Positions 24,374-64,000 of a stretch of DNA of 64,000 nucleotides are shown piece after piece (the stretch's first letter is position 1; each line of letters starts with the position of its first letter). The translations under genes were made by a program, and so were the position numbers. The notes under the pieces are model-generated. The model was not told the DNA's origin, searched no databases, and was given only the letters and a program-made list of their open reading frames with translations. Source of the stretch: Antedon mediterranea. Taxonomy: Eukaryota > Echinodermata > Crinoidea > Comatulida > Antedonidae. The stretch is from assembly GCF_964355755.1 (NCBI RefSeq), contig NC_092673.1, positions 34,543,648-34,607,647 of the forward strand. The letters run 5' to 3'.

Positions 24374-25390
24374 GAATTACTAACTAAAACATTTTGTATA
24401 TTAAAATAGTATACGATAAAAAAATAAGGTACTGCCCGGAATTGAACCGGGGATCAACTATTTAATAGACAGGCGCTTTAACTAGTAACCCACAGCGCCT
24501 TGCTGCAATGCTGAACTATAATAACTTAAAAACGTTTTTTTATATTAAAATGGTATACGATCCAAATTAAGGCACTGCCCGGATTTGAACCAGGGATCTC
24601 TTGTTTACTAGACAGGCGCTTTAACCGCTAAGCAACAGCGTCTTCCTGTATTGCTTAATTACGTTAAGAAAAATAGGAACTAAAAAACGTTTTGTATATT
24701 AAAATGGTATACGATGAATATTAAGGCACTGACTGGATTTGAACCGGAGATCTCCTGGCGCTTTAACCGCTAAACCACAGCGTCTTGCTGTAATTCTGAA
24801 TTACGTTTAAAAAAATAATAACCTAAAAAAGTTTTTGGTAAATTAAACTGGTATACGATCTAAATTAAGGCACTGCCCGGATTTGAACCAGGGATCTCTT
24901 GTTTACAAGACAGGCACTTTAAACGCTAAGCCACAGCGCCTTCATGTATTGCTTAATTACGTTAAATAAAATAATAAATTTAAAACGTTTTTGTATATTA
25001 AAATGGTGTACGATAAAAATTGATGCACTGCCCTGATTTGAACCAGGGATCTCCTGTTTACAAGACAGGCACTTTAACGGCTAAGCTACAGCGCCTTGCT
25101 GTAATTTTGAATTACGTTAAAAAAATAATAATTAAAAAACAGTTTGTATATTAAAATGGTATACGATAAAAATAAAGGCACTGCCCGGATTTGAACCGGG
25201 AATCTCCCGTTTACTAGACAGGCGCTTTAACCACTAAGCCACAGCACCTTGCTGTAGTTTTGAATTACGTTACCCAAATAATAATGAAAAAACATTTTGT
25301 ATATTAAAATGGTATACAATAAAAATAAAGGCACTGCCCGGAATTGAACCTGGGATCTCCTGTTTACAAGACAGGCGCTTTAACCGCCAA

Positions 25391-27074
25391 GCTTTGCTGT
25401 AATTTTGAATTACGTTAAAAAAATAATAATTAAAAAACATTTTGTATATTAAAATAATATACGATAAAAATAAAGGCACTGCCAGGATTTGAACCGGGGA
25501 CCTCCTGTTTACTAGACAGGCGCTTTAACCGCTAAGCCACAGCGCCTTACTGTAATGCTGAATAACGTTAAGAAAAATAATAACTTAAAAAGTTTTTATA
25601 TATTAAAATGGTATACGATAAAAATTAAGGCACTGGCTGGATTTGAACCAGGGATCTCTTGTTTACTAGACAGGCACTTTAACCGCTACGCCACAGCGCC
25701 TTGCTGTAATGCTGAATTACGTTTAAAAAAAAAATAACTTAAAAAAGTTTTGGTAAATTGAACTGGTATACGATCAAAATTAAGGCACTGCCCGGATTTG
25801 AACCAGGGATCTCCTGTTTACTAGACAGGCGCTGTAACCGCTAAGCCTCAGCACCTTGCTGTAATTTTGATTTACGTTAAAAAAAATAATAATAAAAAAA
25901 CATTTTGTATATTATAATGGTATACGATAAAAATGAAGGCACTTTCCAGATTTGAACCGGGGATCTCCTGTTTACAAGACAGGCACTTTAACCGCTAAGC
26001 CACAGCGCCTTGCTGTAATACTGACTACCTTAAAAAAAAAAATAACTGAAAAACGTTTTGTATATTAAAATGGTATACAATAAAAACCAAGGCACTGCCC
26101 GGATTTGAACCTGGGATCTCCTGTTTACAAGACAGGCGCTTTAACCGCTAAGCAACAGCGCCCTTCCTGTATTGCTTAATTACGTTAAAAAAAATAATAA
26201 TGAAAAAACATTTTGTATATTATAATGGTAGATGATAAAAATTAAGGCACCACCTGGATTTGAACTGGGGATCTCCTGTTTACTAGACAGGCACTTTAAC
26301 CGCTAAGCCACAGTGCCTTGCTACAACGCTGAACTACGTTAAAAAAATAATAACTAAAAAACGTTTTGTATATTCAAATGGTATACAATAAAAATTAAGG
26401 CACTGCCCGGATTTGAACCGGGGATCTCCTGTTTACAAGACAGGCGCTTTAACAGCTAAACCACAGCGCCTTCATGTATTGCTTAATTACGTTAAATAAA
26501 ATAATAAATTTAAAACGTTTTTGTACATTATAATGGTGTACGATAAAAATTGAGGCACTGCCCTGATTTGAACTAGGGATCTCCTGTTTACAAGACAGGC
26601 GCTTTAACCGCTAATCCACAGCGCCTTGCTGTAATTTTGAATTACGTTAAAAAAATAATAATTAAAAAACATTTTGTATATTAAAATGGTATACGATAAA
26701 AATGAAGGCAGCGCCCGGATTTGAACCGGGGATCTCTTGTTTACTAGACAGGCGCTTTAACCGCTAATCCACAGCGCCTTGCTGTAAGTTTGAATTACGT
26801 TAACAAAATAATAATAAAAAAACATTTTGTATATTAAAATGGTATACGATAAAAATGAAGGCACTGCCCGGATTTGAACCGGGAATCTCCTGTTTACAAG
26901 ACAGGCGCTTTAACCGCTGAGCCACAGCGCGTTGCTGTAATGCTGAATTACGTTAAAAAAATAAAAACTTAAAAAAGTTTTGGTAAATTAAACTGATATA
27001 CGATCAAAATTAAGGAACTGCCCGGATTTGAACCAGGGATCTCCTGTTTACTAGGCAGGCGCTTTAACCGCTAA
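25391..27074 (-). repeat. 1,684-bp higher-order repeat block, first copy
   Basis: The unusual junction gctttgctgtaa (a unit whose 5' tRNA end is lost) occurs at 25391 and again at 27075, 1,684 bp apart. About 1.3 kb after each point matches closely unit by unit, including shared oddities, before the copies diverge. Confidence 0.8.
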
Positions 27075-28543
27075 GCTTTGCTGTAATTTTGAATTACGTT
27101 AAAAAAATAATAATTAAAAAACATTTTGTATATTAAAATAATATACGATAAAAATAAAGGCACTGCCAGGATTTGAACCGGGGACCTCCTGTTTACTAGA
27201 CAGGCGCTTTAACCGCTAAGCCACAGCGCCTTACTGTAATGCTGAATAACGTTAAGAAAAATAATAACTTAAAAAGTTTTTATATATTAAAATGGTATAC
27301 GATAAAAATTAAGGCACTGGCTGGATTTGAACCAGGGATCTCTTGTTTACTAGACAGGCACTTTAACCGCTACGCCACAGCGCCTTGCTGTAATGCTGAA
27401 TTACGTTTAAAAAAAAATAACTTAAAAAAGTTTTGGTAAATTGAACTGGTATACGATCAAAATTAAGGCACTGCCCGGATTTGAACCAGGGATCTCCTGT
27501 TTACTAGACAGGCGCTGTAACCGCTAAGCCACAGCACCTTGCTGTAATTTTGATTTACGTTAAAAAAAATAATAATGAAAAAACATTTTGTATATTATAA
27601 TGGTATACGATAAAAATGAAGGCACTTCCCAGATTTGAACCGGGGATCTCCTGTTTACAAGACAGGCACTTTAACCGCTAAGCCACAGCGCCTTGCTGTA
27701 ATGCTGACTACCTTAAAAAAAAAATAACTGAAAAACGTTTTGTATATTAAAATGGTATACAATAAAAACCAAGGCACTGCCCGGATTTGAACCTGGGATC
27801 TCCTGTTTACAAGACAGGCGCTTTAACCGCTAAGCAACAGCGCCCTTCCTGTATTGCTTAATTACGTTAAAAAAAATAATAATGAAAAAACATTTTGTAT
27901 ATTATAATGGTATATGATAAAAATTAAGGCACCACCTGGATTTGAACTGGGGATCTCCTGTTTACTAGACAGGCACTTCAACCGCTAAGCCACAGTGCTT
28001 TGCTACAACGCTGAACTACGTTAAAAAAATAATAACTAAAAAACGTTTTGTATATTCAAATGGTATATAATAAAAATTAAGGCACTGCCCGGATTTGAAC
28101 CGGGGATCTCCTGTTTACAAGACAGGCGCTTTAACAGCTAAACCACAGGGCCTTCATGTATTGCTTAATTACGTTAAATAAAATAATAAATTTAAAACGT
28201 TTTTGTACATTATAATGGTGTACGATAAAAATTGAGGCACTGCCCTGATTTGAACTAGGGATCTCCTGTTTACAAGACAGGCGCTTTAACCGCTAACCCA
28301 CAGCGCCTTGCTGTAATTTTGAATTACGTTAAAAAAATAATAATTAAAAAACATTTTGTATATTAAAATGGTATACGATAAAAATGAAGGCACTGCCCGG
28401 ATTTGAACCGGGGATCTCCTGATTACTAGACAGGCGCTTTAACCGCTAAGCCACAGCGCCTTACTGTGGTTTTGAATTACGTTAACAAAATAATAATTAA
28501 AAAACATTAATTTGTATATTAAAATGGTATACGATAAAAATGA

Positions 28544-28616
28544 AGGCACTGCCCGGATTTGAACCGGGGATCTCCTGTTTACTAGACAGGCGCTTTAACC
28601 GCTAAGCCACAGCGCC
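28544..28616 (-). tRNA. tRNA-Thr-AGT: Array tRNA-Thr (AGT), representative intact copy
   Basis: The body is identical to the solitary genes at 17502 and 18620: full cloverleaf, loop CTAGTAA, A and B boxes intact. The spacer behind it has T5 as terminator. It shows that at least some array units keep a fully gene-like sequence. Confidence 0.9.
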
Positions 28617-28699
28617 TTACTGTAGTTTTGAATTACGTTAACAAAATAATAATGAAAAAACATTTTGTATATTAAAATGGTATACGATAAAAATGAAGG

Positions 28700-30110
28700 C
28701 ACTGCCCGGATTTGAACCGGGGATCTCCTGTTTACAAGACAGGCGCTTTAACCGCTAAACCACAGCGTCTTGCTGTAAATCTGAATTACGTTTAAAAAAA
28801 TAATATCTTAAAAAAGTTTTTGGTAATTTAACTGGTATACGATCTAAATTAAGGCACTGCCCGGATTTGAACCGGGGATCTCCTGTTTACAAGACAGGCA
28901 CTTTAACCGCTAAGCCACAGCGCCTTCATGTATTGCTTAATTACGTTAAATAAAATAATAAATTCAAAACGTTTTTGTATATTAAAATGGTGTACGATAA
29001 AAATTGAGGCACTGCCCTGATTTGAACCAGGGATCTCCTGTTTACAAGACAGGCACTTTAACGGCTAAGCTACAGCGCCTTGCTGTAATCTTGAATTACG
29101 TTAAAAAAATTAATAATTAAAAAACAGTTTGTATATTAAATTGGTATACGATAAAAATAAAGGCACTGCCCGGATTTGAACCGGGAATCTCACGTTTACT
29201 AGACAGGCGCTTTAACCACTAAGCCACAGCGCCTTGCTGTAGTTTTGAATTACGTTACCAAAAAAATAATGAAAAAACATTTTGTATATTAAAATGGTAT
29301 ACAATAAAAATAAAGGCACTGCCCGGAAGTGAACCTGGGATCTCCTGTTTACTAGACGCTAAGCCACAGCGCCTTACTGTAATGCTGAATTACGTTAAGA
29401 AAAATAATAACTTAAAAAGTTTTTGTATATTAAAATGGTATACAATAAAAATCAAGGCAGTGCCCGGATTTGAACCCGGGATCTCCTGTTTACAAGACAG
29501 GCGCTTTAACCGCTAAGCAACAGCGACCTGCTGTAATTTTGATTTACGTTAAAAAAAATAATAATGAAAAAAAATTTTGTATATTATAATGGTATATGAT
29601 AAAAATTAAGACAGCGCCCGGATTTGAACCGGGGATCTCCTGTTTACAAGACAGGCGCTTTAACCGCTAAGCAACAGTGCCTTCCTGTATTGCTTAATTA
29701 CGTTAAGAAAAATAATAACTAAAAAACGTTTTGTATATTAAAATGGTATACGATGGATATTAAGGCACTGATTGGATTTGAACCGGGGATCTCCTGTTTA
29801 CTAGACAGGAGCTTTAAGCTTGCTGTAATGATGAATTCGGTTAAAAAGATAGTAACTGAAAAAACGTTTTGTATATTAAAATGGTATACGATAAAAATGA
29901 AGGCACTGCCCGGATTTGAACCGGGGATCTCCTGTTTACAAGACAGGCGCTTTAACCGCTAAACCACAGCGCCTTGCTGTAATGCTGACTACCTTAAAAA
30001 AAAAATAACTGAAAAACGTTTTGTATATTAAAATGGTATACAATAAAAATAAAGGCACTGCCCGGATTTGAACCGGGGATCTCCTGTTTACTAGACAGGC
30101 ACTTTAACCG
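28700..30110 (-). repeat. Higher-order block repeated 3,510 bp later
   Basis: Unit order and diagnostic variants (for example the tgctgtaaat spacer at 28771 and 32281, and the cggaagtgaacc unit) recur at a constant 3,510-bp offset up to about 30,110 / 33,620. Confidence 0.8.
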
Positions 30111-33100
30111 CTACGCCACAGCGCCTTGCTGTAATGCTGAATTACGTTTAAAAAAAAATAACTTAAAAAAGTTTTGGTAAATTGAACTGGTATACGATCA
30201 AAATTAAGGCACTGCCCGGATTTGAACCAGGGATCTCCTGTTTACTAGACAGGCGCTGTAACCGCTAAGCCACAGCACCTTGCTGTAATTTTGATTTACG
30301 TTAAAAAAAATAATAATGAAAAAACATTTTGTATATTATAATGGTATACGATAAAAATGAAGGCACTTCCCAGATTTGAACCGGGGATCTCCTGTTTACA
30401 AGACAGGCACTTTAACCGCTAAGCCACAGCGCCTTGCTGTAATGCTGACTACCTTAAAAAAAAAATAACTGAAAAACGTTTTGTATATTAAAATGGTATA
30501 CAATAAAAACCAAGGCACTGCCCGGATTTGAACCTGGGATCTCCTGTTTACAAGACAGGCGCTTTAACCGCTAAGCAACAGCGCCCTTCCTGTATTGCTT
30601 AATTACGTTAAAAAAAATAATAATGAAAAAACATTTTGTATATTATAATGGTATATGATAAAAATTAAGGCACCACCTGGATTTGAACTGGGGATCTCCT
30701 GTTTACTAGACAGGCGCTTTAACCGCTAAGCCACAGTGCTTTGCTACAACGCTGAACTACGTTAAAAAAATAATAACTAAAAAACGTTTTGTATATTCAA
30801 ATGGTATACAATAAAAATTAAGGCACTGCCCGGATTTGAACCGGGGATCTCCTGTTTACAAGACAGGCGCTTTAACAGCTAAACCACAGGGCCTTCATGT
30901 ATTGCTTAATTACGTTAAATAAAATAATAAATTTAAAACGTTTTTGTACATTATAATGGTGTACGATAAAAATTGAGGCACTGCCCTGATTTGAACTAGG
31001 GATCTCCTGTTTACAAGACAGGCGCTTTAACCGCTAATCCACAGCGCCTTGCTGTAATTTTGAATTACGTTAAAAAAATAATAATTAAAAAACATTTTGT
31101 ATATTAAAATGGTATACGATAAAAATGAAGGCACTGCCCGGATTTGAACCGGGGATCTCCTGTTTACTAGACAGGCGCTTTAACCGCTAAGCCACAGCGC
31201 CTTACTGTGGTTTTGAATTACGTTAACAAAATAATAATGAAAAAACATTTTGTTTATTAAAATGGTATACGATAAAAATGAAGGCAGTGCCCGGATTTGA
31301 ACCGGGGATCTCTTGTTTACTAGACAGGCGCTTTAACCGCTAATCCACACCGCCTTGCTGTAAGTTTGAATTACGTTAAAAAAATAATAACTTAAAAAAG
31401 TTTTGGTAAATTAAACTGATATACGATCAAAATTAAGGAACTGCCCGGATTTGAACCAGGGATCTCCTGTTTACTAGGCAGGCGATTTAACCGCTACGCC
31501 ACAGCGCTTTGCTACATCGCTGAACTACGTTAAAAAAATAATAACTAAAAAACATTTTGTATATTCAAATGGTATACAATAAAAATTAAGGCACTGCCCG
31601 GATTTGAACCGGGGATCTCCTGTTCACAAGACAGGCGCTTTAACAGCTAAACCACAGCGCCTTCATGTATTGCTTAATTACGTTAAAGAAAATAATAAAT
31701 TTAAAACGTTTTTGTACATTATAATGGTGTACGATAAAAATTTAGGCACTGCCCTGATTTGAACTAGGGATCTCCTGTTTACAAGACAGGCGTTTTAACC
31801 GCTAATCCACAGCGCCTTGCTGTAATTTTGAATTACGTTAAAAAAATAATAATTAAAAAACATTAATTTGTATATTAAAATGGTATACGATAAAAATGAA
31901 GGCACTGCCCGGATTTGAACCGGGGATCTCCTGTTTACTAGACAGGCGCTTTAACCGCTAAACCACAGCGCCTTACTGTAGTTTTGAATTACGTTAACAA
32001 AATAATAATGAAAAAACATTTTGTATATTAAAATGGTATACGATAAAAATGAAGGCACTGCCCGGATTTGAACCGGGGATCTCCTGTTTACTAGACAGGC
32101 GCTTTAACCGCTAAGCCACAGCGCCTTACTGTAGTTTTGAATTACGTTAACAAAATAATAATGAAAAAACATTTTGTATATTAAAATGGTATACGATAAA
32201 AAATGAAGGCACTGACCGGATTTGAACCGGGAATCTCCTGTTTACAAGACAGGCGCTTTAACCGCTAAACCACAGCGTCTTGCTGTAAATCTGAATTACG
32301 TTTAAAAAAATAATATCTTAAAAAAGTTTTTGGTAATTTAACTGGTATACGATCTAAATTAAGGCACTGCCCGGATTTGAACCGGGGATCTCCTGTTTAC
32401 AAGACAGGCACTTTAACCGCTAAGCCACAGCGCCTTCATGTATTGCTTAATTACGTTAAATAAAATAATAAATTCAAAACGTTTTTGTATATTAAAATGG
32501 TGTACGATAAAAATTGAGGCACTGCCCTGTATTGAACCAGGGATCTCCTGTTTACAAGACAGGCACTTTAACGGCTAAGCTACAGCGCCTTGCTGTAATC
32601 TTGAATTACGTTAAAAAAATTAATAATTAAAAAACAGTTTGTATATTAAATTGGTATACGATAAAAATAAAGGCACTGCCCGGATTTGAACCGGGAATCT
32701 CACGTTTACTAGACAGGCGCTTTAACCACTAAGCCACAGCGCCTTGCTGTAGTTTTGAATTACGTTACCAAAAAAATAATGAAAAAACATTTTGTATATT
32801 AAAATGGTATACAATAAAAATAAAGGCACTGCCCGGAAGTGAACCTGGGATCTCCTGTTTACTAGACGCTAAGCCACAGCGCCTTACTGTAATGCTGAAT
32901 TACGTTAAGAAAAATAATAACTTAAAAAGTTTTTGTATATTAAAATGGTATACAATAAAAATCAAGGCAGTGCCCGGATTTGAACCCGGGATCTCCTGTT
33001 TACAAGACAGGCGCTTTAACCGCTAAGCAACAGCGACCTGCTGTAATTTTGATTTACGTTAAAAAAAATAATAATGAAAAAAAATTTTGTATATTATAAT

Positions 33101-35375
33101 GGTATATGATAAAAATTAAGACAGCGCCCGGATTTGAACCGGGGATCTCCTGTTTACAAGACAGGCGCTTTAACCGCTAAGCAACAGTGCCTTCCTGTAT
33201 TGCTTAATTACGTTAAGAAAAATAATAACTAAAAAACGTTTTGTATATTAAAATGGTATACGATGGATATTAAGGCACTGATTGGATTTGAACCGGGGAT
33301 CTCCTGTTTACTAGACAGGAGCTTTAAGCTTGCTGTAATGATGAATTCGGTTAAAAAGATAGTAACTGAAAAAACGTTTTGTATATTAAAATGGTATACG
33401 ATAAAAATGAAGGCACTGCCCGGATTTGAACCAAGAATCTCCTGTTTACAAGACAGGCGCTTTAACCGCTAAGCCACAGCGCCTTGCTGTAATGCTGACT
33501 ACCTTAAAAAAAAAATAACTGAAAAACGTTTTGTATATTAAAATGGTATACAATAAAAATAAAGGCACTGCCCGGATTTGAACCGGGGATCTCCTGTTTA
33601 CTAGACAGGCGCTTTAACCGCTAAGCCACAGCACCCTCCTGTATTTCTTAATTACGTTAAGAAAAATAATAACTGAAAAACATTTTGTTTAATAAAATGG
33701 TATACGATAAAAATTAAGGCACTGGCTGGAGTTGAACCGGGGATCTCTTGTTTACTAGACAGGCGCTTTAACCAATAAGCCACAGCGCCTTGCTGTAATT
33801 TTGAATTACGTTAAAAAAATAATGATTAAAAAACATTTTGTATATTAAAATGGTATACGATAAAAATGAAGGCACTGCCCGGATTTGAACCAGGGATCTC
33901 CTGTTTACTAGACAGGCTCTTTAACCGCTAAGCCAAAGCGCCTTGCTGTAATGCTGACTACCTTAAAAAAAAATAACTGAAAAACGTTTTGTATATTAAA
34001 ATGGTATACAATAAAAATAAAGGCACTGCCCGGATTTGAACCGGGGATCTCCTGTTTACTAGACGCTAAGCCACAGCGCCTTACTGTAATGCTGATTTAC
34101 GTTAAGAAAAATAATAACTTAAAAAGTTTTTGTATATTAAAATGGTATACAATAAAAATCAAGGCACTGCCCGGATTTGAACCGGGGATCTCCTGTTTAC
34201 AAGACAGGCGCTTTAACCGCTAAGCAATAGCGACTTGCTGTAATTTTGATTTACGTTAAAAAAAATAATAATGAAAAAACATTTTGTATATTATAATGGC
34301 ATATGATAAAAATTAAGACAGCGCCCGGATTTGAACCGGGGATCTCCTGTTTACAAGACAGGCGCTTTAACCGCTAAGCAACAGCTCCTTCCTGTATTGC
34401 TTAATTACGTTAAGAAAAATAATAACTAAAAAACGTTTTGTATATTAAAATGGTATACGATGGATATTAAGGCACTGATTGGATTTGAACCGGGGATCTC
34501 CTGTTTACTAGACAGGCGCTTTAACCTTCCTGTAATGATGAATTCGGTTAAAAAGATAGTAACTGAAAAAACGTTTTGTATATTAAAATGGTATACGATA
34601 AAAATGAAGGCACTGCCCGGATTTGAACCAAGAATCTTCTGTTTACAAGACAGGTGCTTTAACCGCTAAGCCACAGCTCCTTGCTGTTATGCTGACTACC
34701 TTAAAAAAAAAATAACTGAAAAACGTTTTGTATATTAAAATGGTATACAATAAAAATCAAGGCACTGCCCGGATTTGAACCAGGGATCTCCTGTTTACTA
34801 GAAAGGCACTTTAACCGTTAAACCACAATGCCTTCCTGTATTGCTTAATTACGTTAAGAAAAATAATAACTTAAAAAAGTTTTGGTAAATTGAACTGGTA
34901 TACGATCAAAATTAAGGCACTGCCCGGATTTGAACCGGGGATCTCCTGTTTACAAGACAGGCGCTTTAACCGCTAAGCAACAGCACCCTCCTGTATTGCT
35001 TAATTACGTTAAGAAAAATAATAACTGAAAAACATTTTGTTTAATAAAATGGTATACGATAAAAATTAAGGCACTGGCTGGAGTTGAACCGTGGATCTCT
35101 TGTTTACTAGACAGGCGCTTTAACCAATAAGCCACAGCACCTTGCTGTAATTTTGAATTACGTTAAAAAAAATGATAATTTAAAAACATTTTGTATATTA
35201 AAATGGTATACGATAAAAATGAAGGCACTGCCCGGATTTGAACCAGGGATCTCCTGTTTACTAGACAGGCGCTTTAACCGCTAAGCCACAGCACCTTACT
35301 GTAGTTTTGAATTACGTTAACAAAACAATAATGAAAAAACATTTTGTATATTAAAATGGTATACGATAAAAATAA

Positions 35376-35448
35376 AGGCCCTGCACGGATTTGAACCGGG
35401 GATCTCCTGTTTAGAAGACAGGCGCTTTAACCGCTAAGCAACAGCGCC
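35376..35448 (-). tRNA. Array unit with anticodon TCT (Arg) in a Thr backbone
   Basis: The anticodon loop reads CTTCTAA, so the anticodon is TCT, which would read Arg AGA. It differs from the TGT form by one base (G35 to C). The anticodon stem is intact; the acceptor stem has a G-G clash at pair 4-69 and the T stem one mismatch. It may be a pseudogene or a mis-decoding tRNA. Confidence 0.75.
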
Positions 35449-49426: not shown

Positions 49427-51037
49427 TTATTTCGGTTTTAACTTCTGTCTCTTGTACGATGTACTCGGGCGTTGTAACTTGAGGGTTAACTGGACTTTGC
49501 ATCGAATGTTGCTAGCAAGTAGACTTGTTCCATTTTGAGATAGGTGATATCCGTCTTGGGCCAATAAATTGTAGATAATGTTACCATTTCTAAGAAAATT
49601 GCTGTTGTCACAGAATGACAAGTTGTGTATATTGTCAAGTCTCATTGCGTGCTTGATTTCTGCGTTTACCATCTCAATTTTGTAATTTAGTTCCCCTACT
49701 CTCGGTAGACCCAGTGAGATGATAAAGTGGGTATTTGGGAATTCAATGGCATAACTTTTTATCATACTGTAGAGGGCGTTTGCACACTCCTCTGCGCTCA
49801 TATTTTTTATAGTGTTTGTGATTTCATGTATCACGATGCAGTCCGGGTCTTCCTGGAGGTTTTCTAGCGCGTCGCTAATGTCCGATAGGGTATACGCTTG
49901 TATTATTGTTGTATTTGCCATTGGAAGGAGACGATGAGCATCTATATTTTTTAGATGCGAGTTTCCTATTACCGTTATTGATGTTTTTTTTGATTGGCCC
50001 CTTTTTGGTCCGCCTACGCTGGTACTCCTACGATTTTCATGTTGATGTATCGGTAGACTTTTTATAGCATCTGCGTATGTTTGTTGTTTTTTTGCTTTCT
50101 GAACTATGTTGTAGTCAGAGGTATCAACAGCTATTTGTGTTCTTTTTATTTCATATGTTTCATCTTTTGCTTTAGATAGTTTTCGTTCTGTTTCAGTAAT
50201 CTTGTTTTGTAACGTCGTTATTTGATCTTCTTTAGTAGCTATTAGTTTTTCATATGATTTTATTGATTGTAAGTCGGATTGTAGTTTTCTGTTGTCTGTC
50301 TCTAATTGTTTTATTCTTTCAGTTGATTTATCGACATCTTTTCTTAGTTTGGTGTTTTCTTCGGATTTTTTTGGACAGCTTGGTGTGTTTCGAATTTGTT
50401 TTAATGATTCTATTTCTGACATAAGTTTTTTGTTTTCTGTCTGAAGTCTGCTGTTTTCGCCTGTGATCATCTTCACTTTTAGATCACAGTTCTCTTTGAT
50501 TACATTAAGCAGCGTGTCGGCGAAAAAACTTTCTAACTTTTTGATAGCATGTTTACAATCTATATGGGATTTAGATTGTGTGCTTTTACCAATCGTGTTT
50601 CCAGTGTCCGATGCTTTTATCGGTGTAGGTAGCCCTAGTAGTAGTTGTTGAGCTACACTATCAATGTAGTTTTCAGTTTCAGTGATGATGTCAATATCAG
50701 GGGTGATTTGGTCTTGATGATGTGTTGGATATTCCTTATTCAATATCGGTGGTAAGTCAAGTGATATTCCATCTGTATCAATAGCCTCGTTTATATTGCT
50801 ATTTGCGGGCACATCTTTTTCTTTATCAGTATTGTGATTGCTTATATCAGTTACCACGTTATCAATGTGCACATCATTTGCCTTTAGGTAATTAAGGGCT
50901 TTTTCCATATTGTAGAAAGACTGGAATTGGGCCCCATGAACGCTATCTGTGTTTTCTTGGCATTCAAGCCAGGACTTATATATTCCAGGATTTCTTCCCA
51001 CGGCGACTGCATAGATTTTTTTCTTTCTACACGCCAT
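49427..51037 (-). CDS. LINE ORF1: RNase H1-type hybrid-binding domain, coiled coil and SGNH-esterase-like domain, 536 aa
   Basis: I start at the ATG at 51035-51037 (MACRKK): the open frame extends upstream to 51262, but that part translates array DNA outside the element. Residues 7-51 resemble the RNase H1 N-terminal hybrid-binding (cauli_VI) fold: IYAVAVGRNPGIYKSW, EC, then GAQFQSF with Trp23 and Phe38. About 160-300 is a Lys/Glu/Leu coiled coil, likely for multimerisation. About 353-520 looks like an SGNH hydrolase: ITVIGNSHLKN with Ser360 in the block I position (Asn359 replaces the usual Asp), and DGYHLSQNG with Asp495 and His498. Esterase-type ORF1 proteins are known in CR1-like LINEs; the N-terminal domain is the unusual part. 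The stop TAA is at 49427-49429. Confidence 0.85.
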   Translation of the reverse strand: MACRKKKIYAVAVGRNPGIYKSWLECQENTDSVHGAQFQSFYNMEKALNYLKANDVHIDNVVTDISNHNTDKEKDVPANSNINEAIDTDGISLDLPPILNKEYPTHHQDQITPDIDIITETENYIDSVAQQLLLGLPTPIKASDTGNTIGKSTQSKSHIDCKHAIKKLESFFADTLLNVIKENCDLKVKMITGENSRLQTENKKLMSEIESLKQIRNTPSCPKKSEENTKLRKDVDKSTERIKQLETDNRKLQSDLQSIKSYEKLIATKEDQITTLQNKITETERKLSKAKDETYEIKRTQIAVDTSDYNIVQKAKKQQTYADAIKSLPIHQHENRRSTSVGGPKRGQSKKTSITVIGNSHLKNIDAHRLLPMANTTIIQAYTLSDISDALENLQEDPDCIVIHEITNTIKNMSAEECANALYSMIKSYAIEFPNTHFIISLGLPRVGELNYKIEMVNAEIKHAMRLDNIHNLSFCDNSNFLRNGNIIYNLLAQDGYHLSQNGTSLLASNIRCKVQLTLKLQRPSTSYKRQKLKPK

Positions 51038-54000
51038 AACGTTATCGTGCTTGTGTTTGTATTTGCATATGAACGAAATGGTACGATTTTGTTTGTGACA
51101 GAAACAATAGACAATACTGTTGCCAAGCTTTAAGCTTGCTGTAATGATAAATTCGGTTAAAAAGATAGTAACTGAAAAAACGTTTTGTATATTAAAATGG
51201 TATACGATAAAAATGAAGGCACTGCCCGGATTTGAACCATGAATCTCCTGTTTACAAGACAAGTGCTTTAACCACTAAGCCACAGCGCCTTGCTGTAATG
51301 CTGACTACCTTAAAAAAAAAATAACTGAAAAACCTTTTGTATATTAAAATGGTATACAATAAAAATAAAGGCACTGCCCGGATTTGAACCGGGGATCTCC
51401 TGTTTACTAGACGCTAAGCCACAGCGCCTTACTGTAATGCTGAATTACGTTAAGAAAAATAATAACTTAAAAAGTTTTTGTATATTAAAATGGTATACAA
51501 TAAAAATCAAGGCAGTGCCCGGATTTGAACCGGGGATCTCCTGTTTACTAGACAGGCGCTTTAACCGCTAAGCCACAGCGCCTTACTGTAGTTTTGAATT
51601 ACGTTAACAAAATAATAATGAAAAAACATTTTGTATATTAAAATGGTATACGATAGAAATGAAGGCCCTGCCCGGATTTGAACCGGGGATCTCTTGTTTA
51701 CAAGACAGGCGCTTTAACCGCAAAGCCACAGCGCCTTACTGTAGTTTTGAATTACGTTAACAAAATAATAATGAAAAAACATTTTGTATATTAAAATGGT
51801 ATACGATAAAAATGAAGGCCCTGCCCGGATTTGAACCAGGGATCTCCTGTTTACAAGACAGGCGCTTTAACCGCTAAGCCACAGCGCCTTACTGTAGTTT
51901 TGAATTACGTTAACAAAATAATAATGAAAAAAAATTTTGTATATTAAAATGGTATACGATAAAAATGAAGGCCCTGCCCGGATTTGAACCGGGGATCTCC
52001 TGTTTACAAGACAGGCGCTTTAACCGCTAAGCCACAGCGCCTTGCTGTAATGCTGAATTACGTTAAGAAAATAATAATGAAAAAACATTTTGTATATTAA
52101 AATGGTATACGATAAAAATGAAGGCCCTGCCCGGATTTGAACCGGGGATCTCCTGTTTACAAGACAGGCGCTTTAACCGCTAAGCCACAGCGGTTTTTAA
52201 AAAAAAAAAATAACTGAAAAACGTTTTGTATATTAAAATGGTATACAATAAAAATAAAGGCACTGCCCGGATTTGAACCGAGGATCTCCTGTTTACTAGA
52301 CGGCGCTTTAACCGCTAACCCACAGCGCCTTACTGTAGTTCTGAATTACGTTAACAAAATAATAATGAAAAAACATTTTGTATATTAAAATGGTATACGA
52401 TAAAAATAAAGGCCCTGCACGGATTTGAAGCGGGGATCTCCTGTTTACAAGACAGGCGCTTTAACCGCTAAGCCACAGCGCCTTGCTGTAATGCTGACTA
52501 CCTTAAAAAAAAATAACTGAAAAACGTTTTGTATATTAAAATGGTATACAATAAAAATAAAGGCACTGCCCGGATTTGAACCGGGGATCTCCTGTTTACT
52601 AGACGCTAAGCCACAGCACCTTACTGTAATGCTGAATTACGTTAAGAAAAATAATAACTTAAAAAGTTTTTGTATATTAAAATGGTATACAATAAAAATC
52701 AAGGCAGTGCCCGGATTTGAACCCGGGATCTCCTGTTTACAAGACAGGCGCTTTAACCGCTAAGCAACAGCGACTTGCTGTAATTTTGATTTACGTTAAA
52801 AAAAATAATAATGAAAAAACATTTTGTATATTATAATGGTATATGATAAAAATTAAGACAGCGCCCGGATTTGAACCGGGGATCTCCTGTTTACAAGACA
52901 GGCGCTTTAACCGCTAAGCAACAGCGCCTTCCTGTATTGCTTAATTACGTTAAGAAAAATAATAACTAAAAAACGTTTTGTATATTAAAATGGTATACGA
53001 TGGATATTAAGGCACTGATTGGATTTGAACCGGGGATCTCCTGTTTACTAGACAGGCGCTTTAAGCTTGCTGTAATGATGAATTCGGTTAAAAAGATAGT
53101 AACTGAAAAAACGTTTTGTATATTAAAATGGTATACGATAAAAATGAAGGCACTGCCCGGATTTGAACCAAGAATCTCCTGTTTACAAGACAGGCGCTTT
53201 AACCGCTAAGCCACAGTGCCTTGCTGTAATGCTGACTACCTTAAAAAAAAATAACTGAAAAACATTTTGTATATTAAAATGGTATACAATAAAAATAAAG
53301 GCACTGCCCGGATTTGAACCGGGGATCTCCTGTTTACTAGACAGGCGCTTTAACCGCTAAGCCACAGCGCCTTGCTGTAGTTTTGAATTACGTTAACAAA
53401 ATAATAATGAAAAAACATTTTGTATATTAAAATGGTATACGATAAAAATGAAGGCCCTGCCCGTATTTGAATCGGGGATCTCCTGTTTACAAGACAGGCG
53501 CTTTAACCGCTAAGCCACAGCGCCTTGCTGTAATGCTGAATTACGTTAAAAAAATAATAACTTAAAAAAGTTTTTGTAAATTAAACTGGTATACGATCAG
53601 AATTAAGGCACTACCCGGATTTGAACCAGGGATCTCCTGTTTACTAGACAGGCACTTTAACCGCTAAACCACAACGCCTTCCTGTATTGCTTAATTACGT
53701 TAAGAAAAATAATAACTTAAAAAAGTTTTGGTAAATTGAACTGGTATACGATCAAAATTAAGGCACTGCCCGGATTTGAACCGGGGATCTCCTGTTTACA
53801 AGACAGGCGCTTTAACCGCTAAGCAACAGCACCCTCCTGTATTGCTTAATTACGTTAAGAAAAATAATAACTGAAAAACATTTTGTTTAATAAAATGGTA
53901 TACGATAAAAATTAAGGCACTGGCTGGAGTTGAAGCGGGGATCTCTTGTTTACTAGACAGGGGCTTTAACCAATAAGCCACAGCGCCTTGCTGTAATTTT

Positions 54001-57000
54001 GAATTACGTTAAAAAAATAATAATTAAAAAACATTTTGTATATTAAAATGGTATACGATAAAAATGAAGGCACTGCCCGGATTTGAACCAGGGATCTCCT
54101 GTTTACTAGACGGCGCTTTAACCGCTAACCCACAGCGCCTTACTGTAGTTCTGAATTACGTTAACAAAATAATAATGAAAAAACATTTTGTATATTAAAA
54201 TGGTATACGATAAAAATAAAGGCCCTGCACGGATTTGAAGCGGGGATCTCCTGTTTACAAGACAGGCGCTTTAACCGCTAAGCCACAGCGCCTTGCTGTA
54301 ATGCTGACTACCTTAAAAAAAAATAACTGAAAAACGTTTTGTATATTAAAATGGTATACAATAAAAATAAAGGCACTGCCCGGATTTGAACCGGGGATCT
54401 CCTGTTTACTAGACGCTAAGCCACAGCACCTTACTGTAATGCTGAATTACGTTAAGAAAAATAATAACTTAAAAAGTTTTTGTATATTAAAATGGTATAC
54501 AATAAAAATCAAGGCAGTGCCCGGATTTGAACCGGGGATCTCCTGTTTACAAGACAGGCGCTTTAACCGCTAAGCAACAGCGACTTGCTGTAATTTTGAT
54601 TTACGTTAAAAAAAATAATAATGAAAAAACATTTTGTATATTATAATGGTATATGATAAAAATTAAGACAGCGCCCGGATTTGAACCGGGGATCTCCTGT
54701 TTACAAGACAGGCGCTTTAACCGCTAAGCAACAGCGCCTTCCTGTATTGCTTAATTACGTTAAGAAAAATAATAACTAAAAAACGTTTTGTATATTAAAA
54801 TGGTATACGATGGATATTAAGGCACTGATTGGATTTGAACCGGGGATCTCCTGTTTACTAGACAGGCGCTTTAACCTTGCTGTAATGATGAATTCGGTTA
54901 AAAAGATAGTAACTGAAAAAATATTTTGTATATTAAAATGGTATACGATAAAAATAAAGGCCCTGCACAGATTTGAACCGGGGATCTCCTGTTTACAAGA
55001 CAGGCGCTTTAACCGCTAAGCCACAGCGCCTTGCTGTAATGCTGACTACCTTAAAAAAAAATAACTGAAAAACGTTTTGTATATTAAAATGGTATACGAT
55101 GAAAATTAAGGCACTGGCTAGAGTTGAACAGGGGATCTCTTGTTTACTAGACAGGCACTTTAACCGCTAATCCACAGCGCCTTGCTGTGATTTTGATTTA
55201 CGTTAAAAAAAATAATAATTAAAAAACATTTTGTATATTATAATGGTATATGATAAAAATTAAGGCACCACCAGGATTTGAACTGGGATCTCCTGTTTAC
55301 TAGACAGGCGCTTTAACCGCTAAACCACACCGTCTTGCTGTAATTCTGAATTACGTTTAAAAAAATAATAACCTAAAAAAGTTTTTGGTAAATTAAACTG
55401 GTATACGATCTAAATTAAGGCACTGCCCGGATTTGAACCGGGGATCTCCTGTTTACAAGACAGGCGCTTTAACCGCTAAGCCACAGCACCTTCATGTATT
55501 GCTTAATTACGTTAAATAAAATAATAAATTCAAAACGTTTTTGTATATTAAAATGGTGTACGATAAAAATTGAGGCACTGCCCTGATTTGAACCAGGGAT
55601 CTCCTGTTTACAAGACAGGCACTTTAACGGCTAAAAATTATAATTAAAAAACATTTTGTATATTAAAATGGTATACGATAAAAATAAAGGCACTGCCCGG
55701 ATTTGAACCCGGGATCTCCTGTTTACTAGACAGGCGCTTTAACCGCTAAGCCACAGCGCCTTACTGTAATGCTGAATAACGTTAAGAAAAATAATAACTT
55801 AAAAAGTTTTTGTATATTAAAATGGTATACGATAAAAATTAAGGCACTGGCTGGATTTGAACCAGGGATCTCTTGTTTACTAGACAGGCACTTTAACCGC
55901 TACGCCACAGCACCTTGCTGTAATGCTGAATTACGTTTAAAAAGAAAATAACTTAAAAAAGTTTTGGTAAATTGAACTTGTATACGATCAAAATTAAGGC
56001 ACTGCCTAGATTTGAACCAGGGATCTCCTGTTTACTAGACAGGCGCTGTAACCGCTAAGCCACAGCGCCTTGCTGTAATTTTGATTTACGTTAAAAAAAA
56101 TAATAATGAAAAAACATTTTGTATATTATAATGGTATACGATAAAAATGAAGGCACTGCCCGGATTTGAACCGGGGATCTCCTATTTACAAGACAGGTGC
56201 TTTAACCGCTAAGCCACAGCGCCTTGCTGTAATGCTGACTACCTTAAAAAAAAAATAACTGAAAAACGTTTTGTATATTAAAATGGTATACATTAAAAAT
56301 CAAGGCACTGCCCGGATTTGAACCAGGGATCTCCTGTTTACTAGACAGGCACTTTAACCGCTAAACCACAACGCTTTCCTGTATTGCTTAATTACGTTAA
56401 GAAAAATAATAACTTAAAAAAGTTTTGGTAAATTGAACTGGTATACGATCAAAATTAAGGCACTGCCCGGATTTGAACCGGGGATCTCCTGTTTACAAGA
56501 CAGGCGCTTTAACCGCTATGCAACAGCACCCTCCTGTATTGCTTAATTACGTTAAGAAAAATAATAACTGAAAAACATTTTGTTTAATAAAATGGTATAC
56601 GATAAAAATTAAGGCTCTGGCTGGAGTTGAACCGGGGATCTCTTGTTTACTAGACAGGCGCTTTAACCGCTAAACCACAACGCCTTCCTGTATTGCTTAA
56701 TTACGTTAAGAAAAATAATAACTTAAAAAAGTTTTGGTAAATTGAACTGGTATACGATCAAAATTAAGGCACTGCCCGGATTTGAACCGGGGATCTCCTG
56801 TTTACAAGACAGGCGCTTTAACCTCTAAGCCACAGCGCCTTGCTGTAATGCTGAATTACGTTAAAAAAATAATAACTTAAAAAAGTTTTTGTAAATTAAA
56901 CTGGTATACGATCAGAATTAAGGCACTGCCCAGATTTGAACCAGGGATCTCCTGTTTACTAGACAGGCACTTTAACCGCTAAACCACAACGCCTTGCTGT

Positions 57001-58900
57001 AATGCTGACTACCTTAAAAAAAAAATAACTGAAAAACGTTTTGTATATTAAAATGGTATACAATAAAAATCAAGGCACTGCCCGGATTTGAACCGGGGAT
57101 GTCCTGTTTACAAGACAGGCGCTTTAACCGCTAAGCAACAGCGCCCTTCCTGTATTGCTTAATTACGTTAAGAAAAATAATAATTGAAAAACATTTTGTA
57201 TAATAAAATGGTATACGATAAAAATTAAGGCACTGGCTAGAGTTGAACCGGGGATCTCTTGTTTACTAGACAGACACTTTAACCGCTAATCCACAGCGCC
57301 TTGCTGTAATTTTGATTTACGTTAAAAAAAATAATAATTAAAAAACATTTTGTATATTATAATGGTATATGATAAAAATTAAGAAACCACCAGGATTTGA
57401 ACTGGGATCTCCTGTTTACTAGACAGGCGCTTTAACCGCTAAACCACACCGTCTTGCTGTAATTCTGAATTACGTTTAAAAAAATAATAACCTAAAAAAG
57501 TTTTTGGTAAATTAAACTGGTATACGAACTAAATTAAGGCACTGCCCGGATTTGAACCGAGGATCTCCTGTTTACAAGACAGGCGCTTTAACCGCTAAGC
57601 AACAGCGCCTTCCTGTATTGCTTAATTACGTTAAGAAAAATAATAACTAAAAAACGTTTTGTATATTAAAATGGTATACGATGGATATTAAGGCACTGAT
57701 TGGATTTGAACCGGGGATCTCCTGTTTACTAGACAGGCGCTTTAAGCTTGCTGTAATGATGAATTCGGTTAAAAAGATAGTAACTGAAAAAACGTTTTGT
57801 ATATTAAAATGGTATACGATAAAAATGAAGGCACTGCCGGATTTGAACCAAGAATCTCCTGTTTACAAGACAGGCGCTTTAACCGCTAAGCCACAGCGCC
57901 TTGCTGTAATGCTGACTACCTTAAAAAAAAATAACTGAAAAACATTTTGTATATTAAAATGGTATACAATAAAAATAAAGGCACTGCCCGGATTTGAACC
58001 GGGGATCTCCTGTTTACTAGACAGGCGCTTTAACCGCTAAGCCACAGCGCCTTACTGTAGTTTTGAATTACGTTAACAAAATAATAATGAAAAAACATTT
58101 TGTATATTAAAATGGTATACGATAAAAATGAAGGCCCTGCCCGTATTTGAATCGGGGATCTCCTGTTTACAAGACAGGCGCTTTAACCGCTAAGCCACAG
58201 CGCCTTGCTGTAATGCTGAATTACGTTAAAAAAATAATAACTTAAAAAAGTTTTTGTAAATTAAACTGGTATACGATCAGAATTAAGGCACTACCCGGAT
58301 TTGAACCAGGGATCTCCTGTTTACTAGACAGGCACTTTAACCGCTAAACCACAACGCCTTCCTGTATTGCTTAATTACGTTAAGAAAAATAATAACTTAA
58401 AAAAGTTTTGGTAAATTGAACTGGTATACGATCAAAATTAAGGCACTGCCCGGATTTGAACCGGGGATCTCCTGTTTACAAGACAGGCGCTTTAACCGCT
58501 AAGCAACAGCACCCTCCTGTATTGCTTAATTACGTTAAGAAAAATAATAACTGAAAAACATTTTGTTTAATAAAATGGTATACGATAAAAATTAAGGCAC
58601 TGGCTGGAGTTGAAGCGGGGATCTCTTGTTTACTAGACAGGGGCTTTAACCAATAAGCCACAGCGCCTTGCTGTAATTTTGAATTACGTTAAAAAAATAA
58701 TAATTAAAAAACATTTTGTATATTAAAATGGTATACGATAAAAATGAAGGCACTGCCCGGATTTGAACCAGGGATCTTCTGTTTACTAGACAGGCGCTTT
58801 AACCGCTAACCCACAGCGCCTTACTGTAATTTTGAATTACGTTAAAAAAATAATAATTAAAAAACATTTTGTATATTAAAATGGTATACGATAAAAATGA

Positions 58901-58973
58901 AGGCACTGCCCGGATTTGAACCAGGGATCTTCTGTTTACCAGACAGGCGCTTTAACCGCTAACCCACAGCGCC
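58901..58973 (-). tRNA. Array unit with anticodon GGT (Thr)
   Basis: The loop reads CTGGTAA, anticodon GGT, codon ACC, still threonine. It differs by one base from the AGT form (A34 to G). The stem bases flanking the loop match neighbouring AGT units apart from the shared tcttctg change. I saw only this one copy. Confidence 0.7.
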
Positions 58974-61629
58974 TTACTGTAGTTCTGAATTACGTTAACA
59001 AAATAATAATGAAAAAACATTTTGTATATTAAAATGGTATACGATAAAAATAAAGGCCCTGCACGGATTTGAAGCGGGGATCTCCTGTTTACAAGACAGG
59101 CGCTTTAACCGCTAAGCCACAGCGCCTTGCTGTAATGCTGACTACCTTAAAAAAAAATAACTGAAAAACGTTTTGTATATTAAAATGGTATACAATAAAA
59201 ATAAAGGCACTGCCCGGATTTGAACCGGGGATCTCCTGTTTACAAGACAGGCGCTTTAACCGCTAAGCAACAGCGACTTGCTGTAATTTTGATTTACGTT
59301 AAAAAAAATAATAATGAAAAAACATTTTGTATATTATAATGGTATATGATAAAAATTAAGACAGCGCCCGGATTTGAACCGGGGATCTCCTGTTTACAAG
59401 ACAGGCGCTTTAACCGCTAAGCAACAGCGCCTTCCTGTATTGCTTAATTACGTTAAGAAAAATAATAACTAAAAAACGTTTTGTATGTTAAAATGGTATA
59501 CGATGGATATTAAGGCACTGATTGAATTTGAACCGGGGATCTCCTGTTTACTAGACAGGCGCTTTAACCTTGCTGTAATGATGAATTCGGTTAAAAAGAT
59601 AGTAACTGAAAAAACATTTTGTATATTAAAATGGTATACGATAAAAATAAAGGCCCTGCACAGATTTGAACCGGGGATCTCCTGTTTACAAGACAGGCGC
59701 TTTAACCGCTAAGCCACAGCGCCTTGCTGTAATGCTGAATTACGTTAAAAAAATAATAACTTAAAAAAGTTTTTGTAATTTAAACTGGTATACGATCAGA
59801 ATTAAGGCACTACCCGGATTTGAACCAGGGATCTCCTGTTTACTAGACAGGCACTTTAACCGCTAAACCACAACGCCTTCCTGTATTGCTTAATTACGTT
59901 AAGAAAAATAATAACTTAAAAAAGTTTTGGTAAATTGAACTGGTATACGATCAAAATTAAGGCACTGCCCGGATTTGAACCGGGGATCTCCTGTTTACAA
60001 GACAGGCGCTTTAACCGCTAAGCAACAGCACCCTCCTGTATTGCTAAATTACGTTAAGAAAAATAATAACTGAAAAACATTTTGTTTAATAAAATGGTAT
60101 ACGATAAAAATTAAGGCACTGGCTGGAGTTGAAGCGGGGATCTCTTGTTTACTAGACAGGGGCTTTAACCAATAAGCCACAGCGCCTTGCTGTAATTTTG
60201 AATTACGTTAAAAAAATAATAATTAAAAAACATTTTGTATATTAAAATGGTATACGATAAAAATGAAGGCACTGCCCGGATTTGAACCAGGGATCTTCTG
60301 TTTACTAGACAGGCGCTTTAACCGCTAACCCACAGCGCCTTACTGTAATTTTGAATTACGTTAAAAAAATAATAATTAAAAAACATTTTGTATATTAAAA
60401 TGGTATACGATAAAAATGAAGGCACTGCCCGGATTTGAACCAGGGATCTTCTGTTTACTAGACAAGCGCTTTAACCGCTAACCCACAGCGCCTTACTGTA
60501 GTTCTGAATTACGTTAACAAAATAATAATGAAAAAACATTTTGTATATTAAAATGGTATACGATAAAAATAAAGGCCCTGCACGGATTTGAAGCGGGGAT
60601 CTCCTGTTTACAAGACAGGCGCTTTAACCGCTAAGCCACAGCGCCTTGCTGTAATGCTGACTACCTTAAAAAAAAATAACTGAAAAACGTTTTGTATATT
60701 AAAATGGTATACAATAAAAATAAAGGCACTGCCCGGATTTGAACCGGGGATCTCCTGTTTACAAGACAGGCGCTTTAACCGCTAAGCAACAGCGACTTGC
60801 TGTAATTTTGATTTACGTTAAAAAAAATAATAATGAAAAAACATTTTGTATATTATAATGGTATATGATAAAAATTAAGACAGCGCCCGGATTTGAACCG
60901 GGGATCTCCTGTTTACAAGACAGGCGCTTTAACCGCTAAGCAACAGCGCCTTCCTGTATTGCTTAATTACGTTAAGAAAAATAATAACTAAAAAACGTTT
61001 TGTATATTAAAATGGTATACGATGGATATTAAGGCACTGATTGGATTTGAACCGGGGATCTCCTGTTTACTAGACAGGCGCTTTAACCTTGCTGTAATGA
61101 TGAATTCGGTTAAAAAGATAGTAACTGAAAAAACATTTTGTATATTAAAATGGTATACGATAAAAATAAAGGCCCTGCACAGATTTGAACCGGGGATCTC
61201 CTGTTTACAAGACAGGCGCTTTAACCGCTAAGCCACAGCGCCTTGCTGTAATGCTGACTACCTTAAAAAAAAATAACTGAAAAACGTTTTGTATATTAAA
61301 ATGGTATACGATAAAAATTAAGGCACTGGCTAGAGTTGAACCGGGGATCTCTTGTTTACTAGACAGGCACTTTAACCGCTAATCCACAGCGCCTTGCTGT
61401 AATTTTGATTTACGTTAAAAAAAATAATAATTAAAAAACATTTTGTATATTATAATGGTATATGATAAAAATTAAGGCACCACCAGGATTTGAACTGGGA
61501 TCTCCTGTTTACTAGACAGGCGCTTTAACCGCTAAACCACACCGTCTTGCTGTAATTCTGAATTACGTTTAAAAAAATAATAACCTAAAAAAGTGTTTGG
61601 TAAATTAAACTGGTATACGATCTAAATTA

Positions 61630-61702
61630 AGGCACTGCCCGGATTTGAACCGGGGATCTCCTGTTTACAAGACAGGCGCTTTAACCGCTAAGCCACAGCG
61701 CC
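61630..61702 (-). tRNA. tRNA-Thr-TGT: Array tRNA-Thr (TGT), representative intact copy
   Basis: It differs from the AGT body at the first anticodon base, giving loop CTTGTAA (anticodon TGT, codon ACA). Acceptor, D, anticodon and T stems pair as in the AGT gene. Derivation from the AGT backbone by one substitution is the simplest reading. Confidence 0.9.
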
Positions 61703-64000
61703 TTCATGTATTGCTTAATTACGTTAAATAAAATAATAAATTCAAAACGTTTTTGTATATTAAAATGGTGTACGATAAAAATTGAGGCACTGCCCTGATT
61801 TGAACCAGGGATCTCCTGTTTACAAGACAGGCACTTTAACGGCTAAAAATTATAATTAAAAAACATTTTGTATATTAAAATGGTATACGATAAAAATAAA
61901 GGCACTGCCCGGATTTGAACCCGGGATCTCCTGTTTACTAGACAGGCGCTTTAACCGCTAAGCCACAGCGCCTTACTGTAATGCTGAATAACGTTAAGAA
62001 AAATAATAACTTAAAAAGTTTTTGTATATTAAAATGGTATACGATAAAAATTAAGGCACTGGCTGGATTTGAACCAGGGATCTCTTGTTTACTAGACAGG
62101 CACTTTAACCGCTACGCCACAGCACCTTGCTGTAATGCTGAATTACGTTTAAAAAGAAAATAACTTAAAGAAGTTTTGGTAAATTGAACTTGTATACGAT
62201 CAAAATTAAGGCACTGCCCAGATTTGAACCAGGGATCTCCTGTTTACTAGACAGGAGCTGTAACCGCTAAGCCACAGCGCCTTGCTGTAATTTTGAATTA
62301 CGTTAAAAAAAATAATAATGAAAAAACATTTTGTATATTAAAATGGTATACAATAAAAATAAAGGCACTGCCCGGATTTGAACCGAGGATCTCCTGTTTA
62401 CTAGACGCTAAGCCACAGCGCCTTACTGTAATGCTGAATTACGTTAAGAAAAATAATAACTTAAAAAGTTTTTGTATATTAAAATGGTATACAATAAAAA
62501 TCAAGGCAGTGCCCGGATTTGAACCCGGGATCTCCTGTTTACAAGACAGGCGCTTTAACCGCTAAGCAACAGCGACTTGCTGTAATTTTGATTTACGTTA
62601 AAAAAAATAATAATGAAAAAACATTTTGTATATTATAATGGTATATGATAAAAATTAAGACAGCGCCCGGATTTGAACCGGGGATCTCCTGTTTACAAGA
62701 CAGGCGCTTTAACCGCTAAGCAACAGCGCCTTCCTGTATTGCTTAATTACGTTAAGAAAAATAATAACTAAAAAACTTTTTGTATATTAAAATGGTATAC
62801 GATGGATATTAAGGCACTGATTGGATTTGAACCGGGGATCTCCTGTTTACTAGACAGGCGCTTTAAGCTTGCTGTAATGATGAATTCGGTTAAAAAGATA
62901 GTAACTGAAAAAACGTTTTGTATGTTAAAATGGTATACGATAAAAATGAAGGCACTGCCCGGATTTGAACCAAGAATCTCCTGTTTACAAGACAGGCGCT
63001 TTAACCGCTAAGCCACAGCGCCTTGCTGTAATGCTGACTACCTTAAAAAAAAATAACTGAAAAACATTTTGTATATTAAAATGGTATACAATAAAAATAA
63101 AGGCACTGCCCGGATTTGAACCGGGGATCTCCTGTTTACTAGACAGGCGCTTTAACCGCTAAGCCACAGCGCCTTACTGTAGTTTTGAATTACGTTAACA
63201 AAATAATAATGAAAAAACATTTTGTATATTAAAATGGTATACGATAAAAATGAAGGCCCTGCCCGTATTTGAATCAGGGATCTCCTGTTTACAAGACAGG
63301 CGCTTTAACCGCTAAGCCACAGCGCCTTGCTGTAATGCTGAATTACGTTAAAAAAATAATAACTTAAAAAAGTTTTTGTAAATTAAACTGGTATACGATC
63401 AGAATTAAGGCACTACCCGGATTTGAACCAGGGATCTCCTGTTTACTAGACAGGCACTTTAACCGCTAAACCACAACGCCTTCCTGTATTGCTTAATTAC
63501 GTTAAGAAAAATAATAACTTAAAAAAGTTTTGGTAAATTGAACTGGTATACGATCAAAATTAAGGCACTGCCCGGATTTGAACCGGGGATCTCCTGTTTA
63601 CAAGACAGGCGCTTTAACCGCTAAGCAACAGCACCCTCCTGTATTGCTTGATTACGTTAAGAAAAATAATAACTGAAAAACATTTTGTTTAATAAAATGG
63701 TATACGATAAAAATTAAGGCACTGGCTGGAGTTGAAGCGGGGATCTCTTGTTTACTAGACAGGGGCTTTAACCAATAAGCCACAGCGCCTTGCTGTAATT
63801 TTGAATTACGTTAAAAAAATAATAATTAAAAAACATTTTGTATATTAAAATGGTATACGATAAAAATGAAGGCACTGCCCGGATTTGAACCAGGGATCTT
63901 CTGTTTACTAGACAGGCGCTTTAACCGCTAACCCACAGCGCCTTACTGTAGTTCTGAATTACGTTAAGAAAAATAATAACTTAAAAAGTTTTTGTATATT

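Follow-up and report, generated by a model that had tools for sequence, protein, structure and literature searches.

The 64,000-nucleotide stretch analysed here, from the genome of Antedon mediterranea, a feather star among the comatulid crinoids (the window; positions 34543648-34607647 of contig C4) carries a large tandem array of short units, each holding a transfer RNA (tRNA) gene for threonine or a relic of one. On balance, we favour the reading that this locus belongs to a set of seven or more amino-acid-specific tRNA arrays in the genome, that it has grown in the manner of satellite DNA, and that a minority of its units are sound genes which probably contribute to the supply of tRNA-Thr.

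The tRNA-Thr array and its sister arrays

The array is real and lies far beyond what chance could produce. A unit search with nhmmer found 229 units within the window, every one of them minus-strand, between about 24.4 kb and position 64000; they lie head to tail, as a tandem tRNA gene array does, in two blocks at 24374..46119 and 51139..64000. The array continues for approximately 15.6 kb past the window and ends at extended coordinate 79625 (C4 near 34623272), giving 304 units in all, of which 202 are distinct. The original prediction, that about 225-230 units lie on one strand and run on beyond the window in unusually high copy number, thus agrees closely with the count, except that one unit, located beyond the window, is inverted. 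One further correction is needed: the only gap among the window units (5,018 bp, 46121-51138) is an inserted long interspersed nuclear element (LINE), described below, and is not array.

Each unit of about 154 bp consists of a 73-nt tRNA-Thr body followed by an AT-rich spacer of about 80 bp; neighbouring units are for the most part 151-156 bp apart, and those of a deletion class 137-140 bp. Tandem Repeats Finder (TRF), the kind of tool that had been proposed as a check, recovered the array with a period of 154 (24757-46119 in the first block, with further rows in the second). The composition of the unit as tRNA-Thr body plus spacer is borne out by Rfam family RF00005, of which 195 matches in the window lie above the gathering score, two single genes upstream of the array included, and by ARAGORN, which makes 186 tRNA calls there, two of them being the same upstream genes and only four of the array calls being other than Thr (one Asn-ATT and three Arg-TCT). 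A further ARAGORN call, at extended coordinate 92174, was judged spurious when read. The best RF00005 score in the window (72.9 bits, E 5e-14) belongs to an intact tRNA-Thr(TGT) gene at 61630..61702 on the minus strand, whose alignment serves as an example of a sound array gene. The threonine identity that had been predicted holds, with the amendment that two anticodons are present, AGT in 152 and TGT in 144 units (296 of 304), the remaining eight having others or gaps. The units are not mostly uniform, their mean pairwise identity being 0.84 (n=229).

Arrays of this kind are not confined to threonine. Across the genome searched (354,431,138 bases on 18 contigs), tandem pairs of the internal promoter element box B occur 1008 times at a period of 142-171 bp, against 28 in the control, with C4 contributing 153; at a period of 112-141 bp there are 342, against 2 in the control. 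From the matches of a genome tRNA search and from the box-B pair places listed (about 100 per list, on the earlier contigs), and with the sister arrays read in part, we count at least seven arrays, spread over five contigs (C1, C2, C3, C4 and C8), so that, as in Entamoeba, many tRNA families are arrayed in one genome; further arrays beyond these seven are likely. A tRNA-Lys(TTT) array of 176-bp units lies at C8:23582228-23675181, where three of its ten 10-kb stretches were read (parts in L029-L031), the first sparse and the other two dense; the genome tRNA search, in which 63 of 35763 candidates were scored, placed 58 of its 62 matches in this C8 array. A tRNA-Lys(CTT) array of 146-bp units lies at C3:8098501-8102160 (L033; 19 of 21 ARAGORN calls), and a tRNA-Cys(GCA) array of 137-bp units at C2:14174780-14191209 (part in L032), where 12 of 15 ARAGORN calls in 3 kb are Cys. 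The tRNA-Pro array at C1:30277430-30298574 (part in L034) gave 11 calls in 2 kb, namely AGG four times, CGG three times and TGG four times, the first six in rotation, and several of its TGG units have an altered D-loop when read by eye. Finally, there are a tRNA-Ile(AAT) array at C1:41048526-41070306 (part in L035; 12 of 12 calls) and a tRNA-Gly(TCC) array in two opposed blocks at C2:25096658-25107580 (part in L036; 12 of 12 calls in the 2 kb read).

None of the arrays read serves more than one amino acid, and each of those compared has a spacer of its own. Because arrays exist for other amino acids, arraying appears to be a habit of this genome and not the property of one odd satellite, and we dropped the reading of a lone tRNA-derived satellite once arrays of other isotypes appeared.

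A probable local origin, block duplication and insertions

Two single tRNA-Thr(AGT) genes stand upstream of the array on the minus strand, at 17502..17574 and 18619..18692, both called by ARAGORN and Rfam. Neither has the array spacer and both have the D-loop AGCGG of the array; the former, with flanks of its own, is likely to be of the founder type. Beside them, at 18478..18542 on the same strand, is a partial tRNA-Thr relic, a weak match covering query positions 31-93. The single Thr genes on C1 and C6 have the D-loop AGTTGG, and their matches span essentially the tRNA body alone, which argues that the array is of a local type. The spacer motif, searched genome-wide with up to three mismatches, gave 269 matches (control 4), all but two of them (267) in the Thr array, and an anticodon-arm pattern gave 275 (control 0), of which, among the matches listed, only two lie outside C4, on C1 and C6 respectively. 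From the distribution of spacer, D-loop and anticodon arm, a local founder followed by local growth would be the simplest account. Origin from a tRNA-derived short interspersed nuclear element was considered and rejected: the spacer is restricted to the array locus, the matches on C1 and C6 are essentially body only, and dispersed copies of the whole unit, which such an element would leave, were not found in the genome-wide spacer search.

We also rejected two founding subfamilies, one for each anticodon. Identity between units is nearly independent of the anticodon (0.886 within AGT, 0.882 within TGT and 0.877 between them), and on the unit tree the anticodon base must have changed 20 times or more, against a shuffled mean of 66.

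A k-mer scan for block pairs revealed recent, nested duplication of multi-unit blocks. The largest pair consists of 5.5-kb blocks at 30081..35577 and 35558..41053, both on the minus strand, which are 99.94-99.95% identical over two ungapped segments; a 1.5-kb block at 39879..41394 (minus strand) has a tandem duplicate at 41370-42885 (99.93%), and a 1.6-kb block at 58153..59738 (minus strand) one at 59672-61257 (99.62%); blocks of 1.4-1.6 kb, these included, recur at offsets of 1491, 1519, 6212 and 9802. Overall, identity is 99.4-99.95% between ungapped blocks that are 1.2-3.6 kb long (up to 5.5 kb when neighbours are joined) and offset by 1.5 to 9.8 kb, while shorter block pairs descend to 95.5%. 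Counted over the whole array stretch, inserts included, 58.8% of bases fall in pairs of at least 600 bp at 99% or above. The predicted block duplication is confirmed, and near-identical multi-unit blocks of tandem units are present as in satellite higher-order repeats. The array has no one regular higher-order period: the best lag among those of 1-59 units (36 units) has 18% of unit pairs above 97% identity. Variants are also shuffled among units; of 595 dimorphic column pairs, 324 contain all four combinations. Near-identical nested blocks together with shuffled variants suggest that unequal exchange, block duplication and conversion shaped the array.

We propose that the starting point was a tRNA-Thr(AGT) gene at this locus, like those surviving at 17.5 and 18.6 kb, which became duplicated together with a short spacer, and that unequal exchange, conversion and multi-unit block duplication would then have built the array, and may still be rebuilding it. 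A change from A to T at anticodon position 34 would have created the second isoacceptor, TGT, now in about half of the units. Intact units retain box A, box B and a T-run terminator, and for this reason transcription by RNA polymerase III (Pol III) would be expected of them, and with it a supply of tRNA-Thr; units with defects in stems or boxes, or with deletions, would be passengers.

The LINE that interrupts the array (46120..51138, minus strand, ends approximate) splits a unit, and is recognised from the unit gap, from its open reading frames (ORFs) and from Pfam matches to RVT_1, Exo_endo_phos and Cauli_VI. Both of its ORFs are open; ORF1 has an RNase H1 N-terminal-like domain, ORF2 a reverse transcriptase plus endonuclease, and a short AAAGC repeat, read by eye, lies at each junction. 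A protein search with ORF2 found distant relatives only, 35-42% identical among the matches listed. Past the window, a second LINE-like insertion with a long reverse-transcriptase-like ORF (read by eye) lies in the Thr array at L010:136-2939, and four tRNA-Val(AAC)-like genes (L009:7493-8355) lie in a repeated stretch inserted in the array and may be part of a mobile or duplicated element. We considered targeting of tRNA units by LINEs and set it aside: another LINE-like ORF, again read by eye, sits outside the array in the 10 kb directly upstream of the window (L015), and no enrichment of LINEs in the array can therefore be claimed.

Elsewhere in the window, a 46-bp minisatellite at 14513-17069 adjoins the single tRNA-Thr genes (4.3 and 46.9 copies in its TRF rows, 98% matches), and a 61-bp tandem repeat of about 13 copies, with several frames open, lies at 5014-5796. 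Within the array spacer, consensus columns 86-92 (the TATACCA region) are near-invariant across the 304 units; this region may be a regulatory element or a product of chance.

Genes, satellite or both

Several features suggest that dozens of sound genes persist in the array amid many decayed units. A run of at least four T lies within 25 nt downstream of the tRNA in 282 of the 304 units, and within 4 nt in 257; the box B consensus is found in 237 units and box A in 152. All strict rules together are satisfied by 40 units, and by 68 if one mismatch is allowed, the box-A rule being a strict one. The tRNA has a mean divergence of 0.054 per site, the spacer one of 0.096. Where the spacer has 0.08-0.12 substitutions per site, the T-loop has 0.017 and the anticodon loop, position 34 left aside, as few as 0.0055. 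In our judgement, nothing hints at function more strongly than the mixture of real isoacceptors in both the Thr and the Pro arrays. Among the sister arrays, a run of four T follows the tRNA in all 23 Lys-CTT units and in 55 of 55, 27 of 29 and four of four Lys-TTT units in the three stretches. Divergence of tRNA against spacer is 0.025 and 0.047 in Lys-CTT, and 0.047 and 0.054, then 0.038 and 0.054, in two Lys-TTT stretches, the third, of four units, giving 0.046 and 0.037.

Other findings speak against the units being genes. The tRNA body has gaps in 72 of the 304 units, and only 77 of the 232 gapless bodies are fully paired. Stems pair no more often than they do in shuffled columns (2303 of 2478 cells, 2303.4 expected), compensatory double changes number four where shuffling gives 9.1, and pairing is kept in three of 29 rare stem variants where 4.9 are expected; perfect bodies make up 31 of 117 distinct ones, against 25.9 when shuffled, the largest shuffle reaching 36. 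Column diversity differs weakly between tRNA and spacer (p 0.22 over all columns, 0.02 over A/T columns), private variants per site are 0.0085 in the tRNA and 0.0094 in the spacer (0.0045 and 0.0091 in A/T columns alone), and certain stretches of the spacer vary as little as the tRNA loops do. Nor do all sister arrays appear to resemble standard genes, since Cys and Pro units mostly lack a nearby run of four T: it was found near one of 19 Cys units and in none of 11 Pro units within 16 nt after the tRNA. In Cys, divergence is 0.061 in the tRNA and 0.059 in the spacer. The absent covariation, together with the Cys and Pro arrays poor in such runs, gives the strongest hints against function.

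Taken together, the absence of stem covariation, the similar numbers of private variants and the many body defects suggest that evolution is close to neutral in most units, any constraint being limited to the loops and perhaps past. The units would thus evolve largely as a satellite does, yet include dozens of apparently sound genes. The suggestion in the original prediction, that this is a satellite which began as a tRNA gene, consequently survives in part: it is favoured by stems that do not covary and by the large number of decayed units, whereas the sound genes, the T-run terminators, the two isoacceptors and the arrays of other families speak against it as the whole explanation.

In its pure form, that suggestion would make the array a tRNA-born repeat which is now unconstrained and untranscribed, its intact units being young or merely lucky, and we regard this as a less probable account, though the foremost of those we set beside our own. 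Besides the missing covariation and the lack of any bias towards preserved pairs in rare variants, it would explain the block duplication and the body gaps, including deletion variants that have been amplified. It also accords with an excess of transitions at CpG sites of the tRNA body (313 of 2908, against 247 of 9377 at other C/G sites), as expected if the array is methylated; the T stem, whose variability equals that of the spacer, has its commonest transitions at CpG sites. However, the spacer has no such excess (94 of 1200 against 292 of 3118), and these counts are of units and not of independent events. The lower substitution rate of the tRNA, the near-invariant anticodon loop and T-loop, a position 34 that takes almost only two sensible states, and three real isoacceptors mixed in the Pro array also oppose it.

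That the arrays encode isodecoders for the oocyte (a maternal supply) or for secretory tissue, unlike the dispersed somatic genes, seems to us unlikely. The array D-loop does differ from that of the single genes on C1 and C6, and the Arabidopsis SYY cluster is described as active in root-tip cells (PMC12308677), but dispersed Thr genes were seen at two loci only, and both single genes in the window have the array D-loop. A role as chromatin boundary or insulator, with TFIIIC sites as its building blocks and also raised in the original prediction, would draw on the frequent box B and on the barrier activity that tRNA repeats have elsewhere (PMC4041453); about 300 units for which there is no evident need, and a sequence in which no feature marks a boundary, make it very improbable. 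The role of a tRNA gene amplifier, named beside it in that prediction, stays conjectural. Equally improbable, in our view, as the insulator is that the copy number or the block duplications are inflated by the assembly: blocks of 5.5 kb at 99.9% identity are difficult to assemble, but the 114-kb stretch contains no N, two-thirds of the units (202 of 304) are distinct, the LINE and other insertions anchor the array, and there are further contigs that carry arrays of other families.

Comparison with known tRNA clusters

Tandem tRNA arrays are already known; what looks new is the presence of amino-acid-specific arrays at such scale in a crinoid. A search of open-access literature by title and start of abstract, most subscription papers lying outside its scope, found among the entries listed none on tRNA arrays in crinoids. 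Seven or more single-family arrays in one animal would permit a direct test of whether such arrays feed translation in the oocyte or in secretory tissue, are silenced, or are incidental repeats that bear tRNAs. Because their D-loops differ, array genes and the single genes on C1 and C6 could be separated by tRNA sequencing. The array further displays a change of isoacceptor through a single anticodon base, spread through a repeat. A bolder possibility, which we hold only tentatively, is that a large share of the tRNA genes lies in amino-acid arrays, some of them mixed in isoacceptors, that these give a dedicated supply (for example to the oocyte) of distinct isodecoders, and that unequal exchange would set both copy number and isoacceptor ratio. 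Maternal tRNA supply has been suggested for zebrafish (PMC11417395), and the supply of secretory glycoproteins in animals was raised as a perspective by the authors of the Arabidopsis SYY study (PMC12308677).

Tandem arrays of tRNA genes are known from Entamoeba (PMC2652664) and recur across eukaryotes (PMC2888827), although homogeneous tandem tRNA repeats have been termed uncommon outside Entamoeba (PMC4041453). Antedon resembles Entamoeba in having tRNA arrays at many loci of a single genome; in Entamoeba, however, units hold up to five tRNA genes, nearly all tRNA genes are arrayed and the copies are mostly uniform (PMC2652664), whereas in Antedon, an animal host, the arrays seen have one amino acid each and divergent units, many of them decayed. 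The SYY cluster of Arabidopsis is likewise a tandem nuclear tRNA cluster, with one major and several minor sequence variants, but it has fewer genes (54 clustered Tyr genes) and two amino acids, and it has been found by experiment to be methylated and inactive in most tissues (PMC12308677), while the Antedon array is known here from its sequence alone.

Among animals, zebrafish holds most of its tRNA genes in repetitive clusters on chromosome 4 (PMC11417395, PMC11075544), but neighbouring tRNA pairs there are mostly heterogeneous (PMC2888827), in contrast to the single-family arrays seen in Antedon. Bivalves also have hundreds of tRNA-Thr genes, 339 in the flat oyster and 791 in the hard clam, and no specific clustering is reported in oyster in the passages concerned (PMC9679248). 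The variable number tandem repeat at human 1q23.3 also consists of tandem units bearing tRNA genes; its units, however, are of 7.3 kb, with four amino acids and a CTCF site, in 9-43 copies of variable number (PMC4041453), compared with the 154-bp units of Antedon, with one tRNA each, in 304 copies in one assembly.

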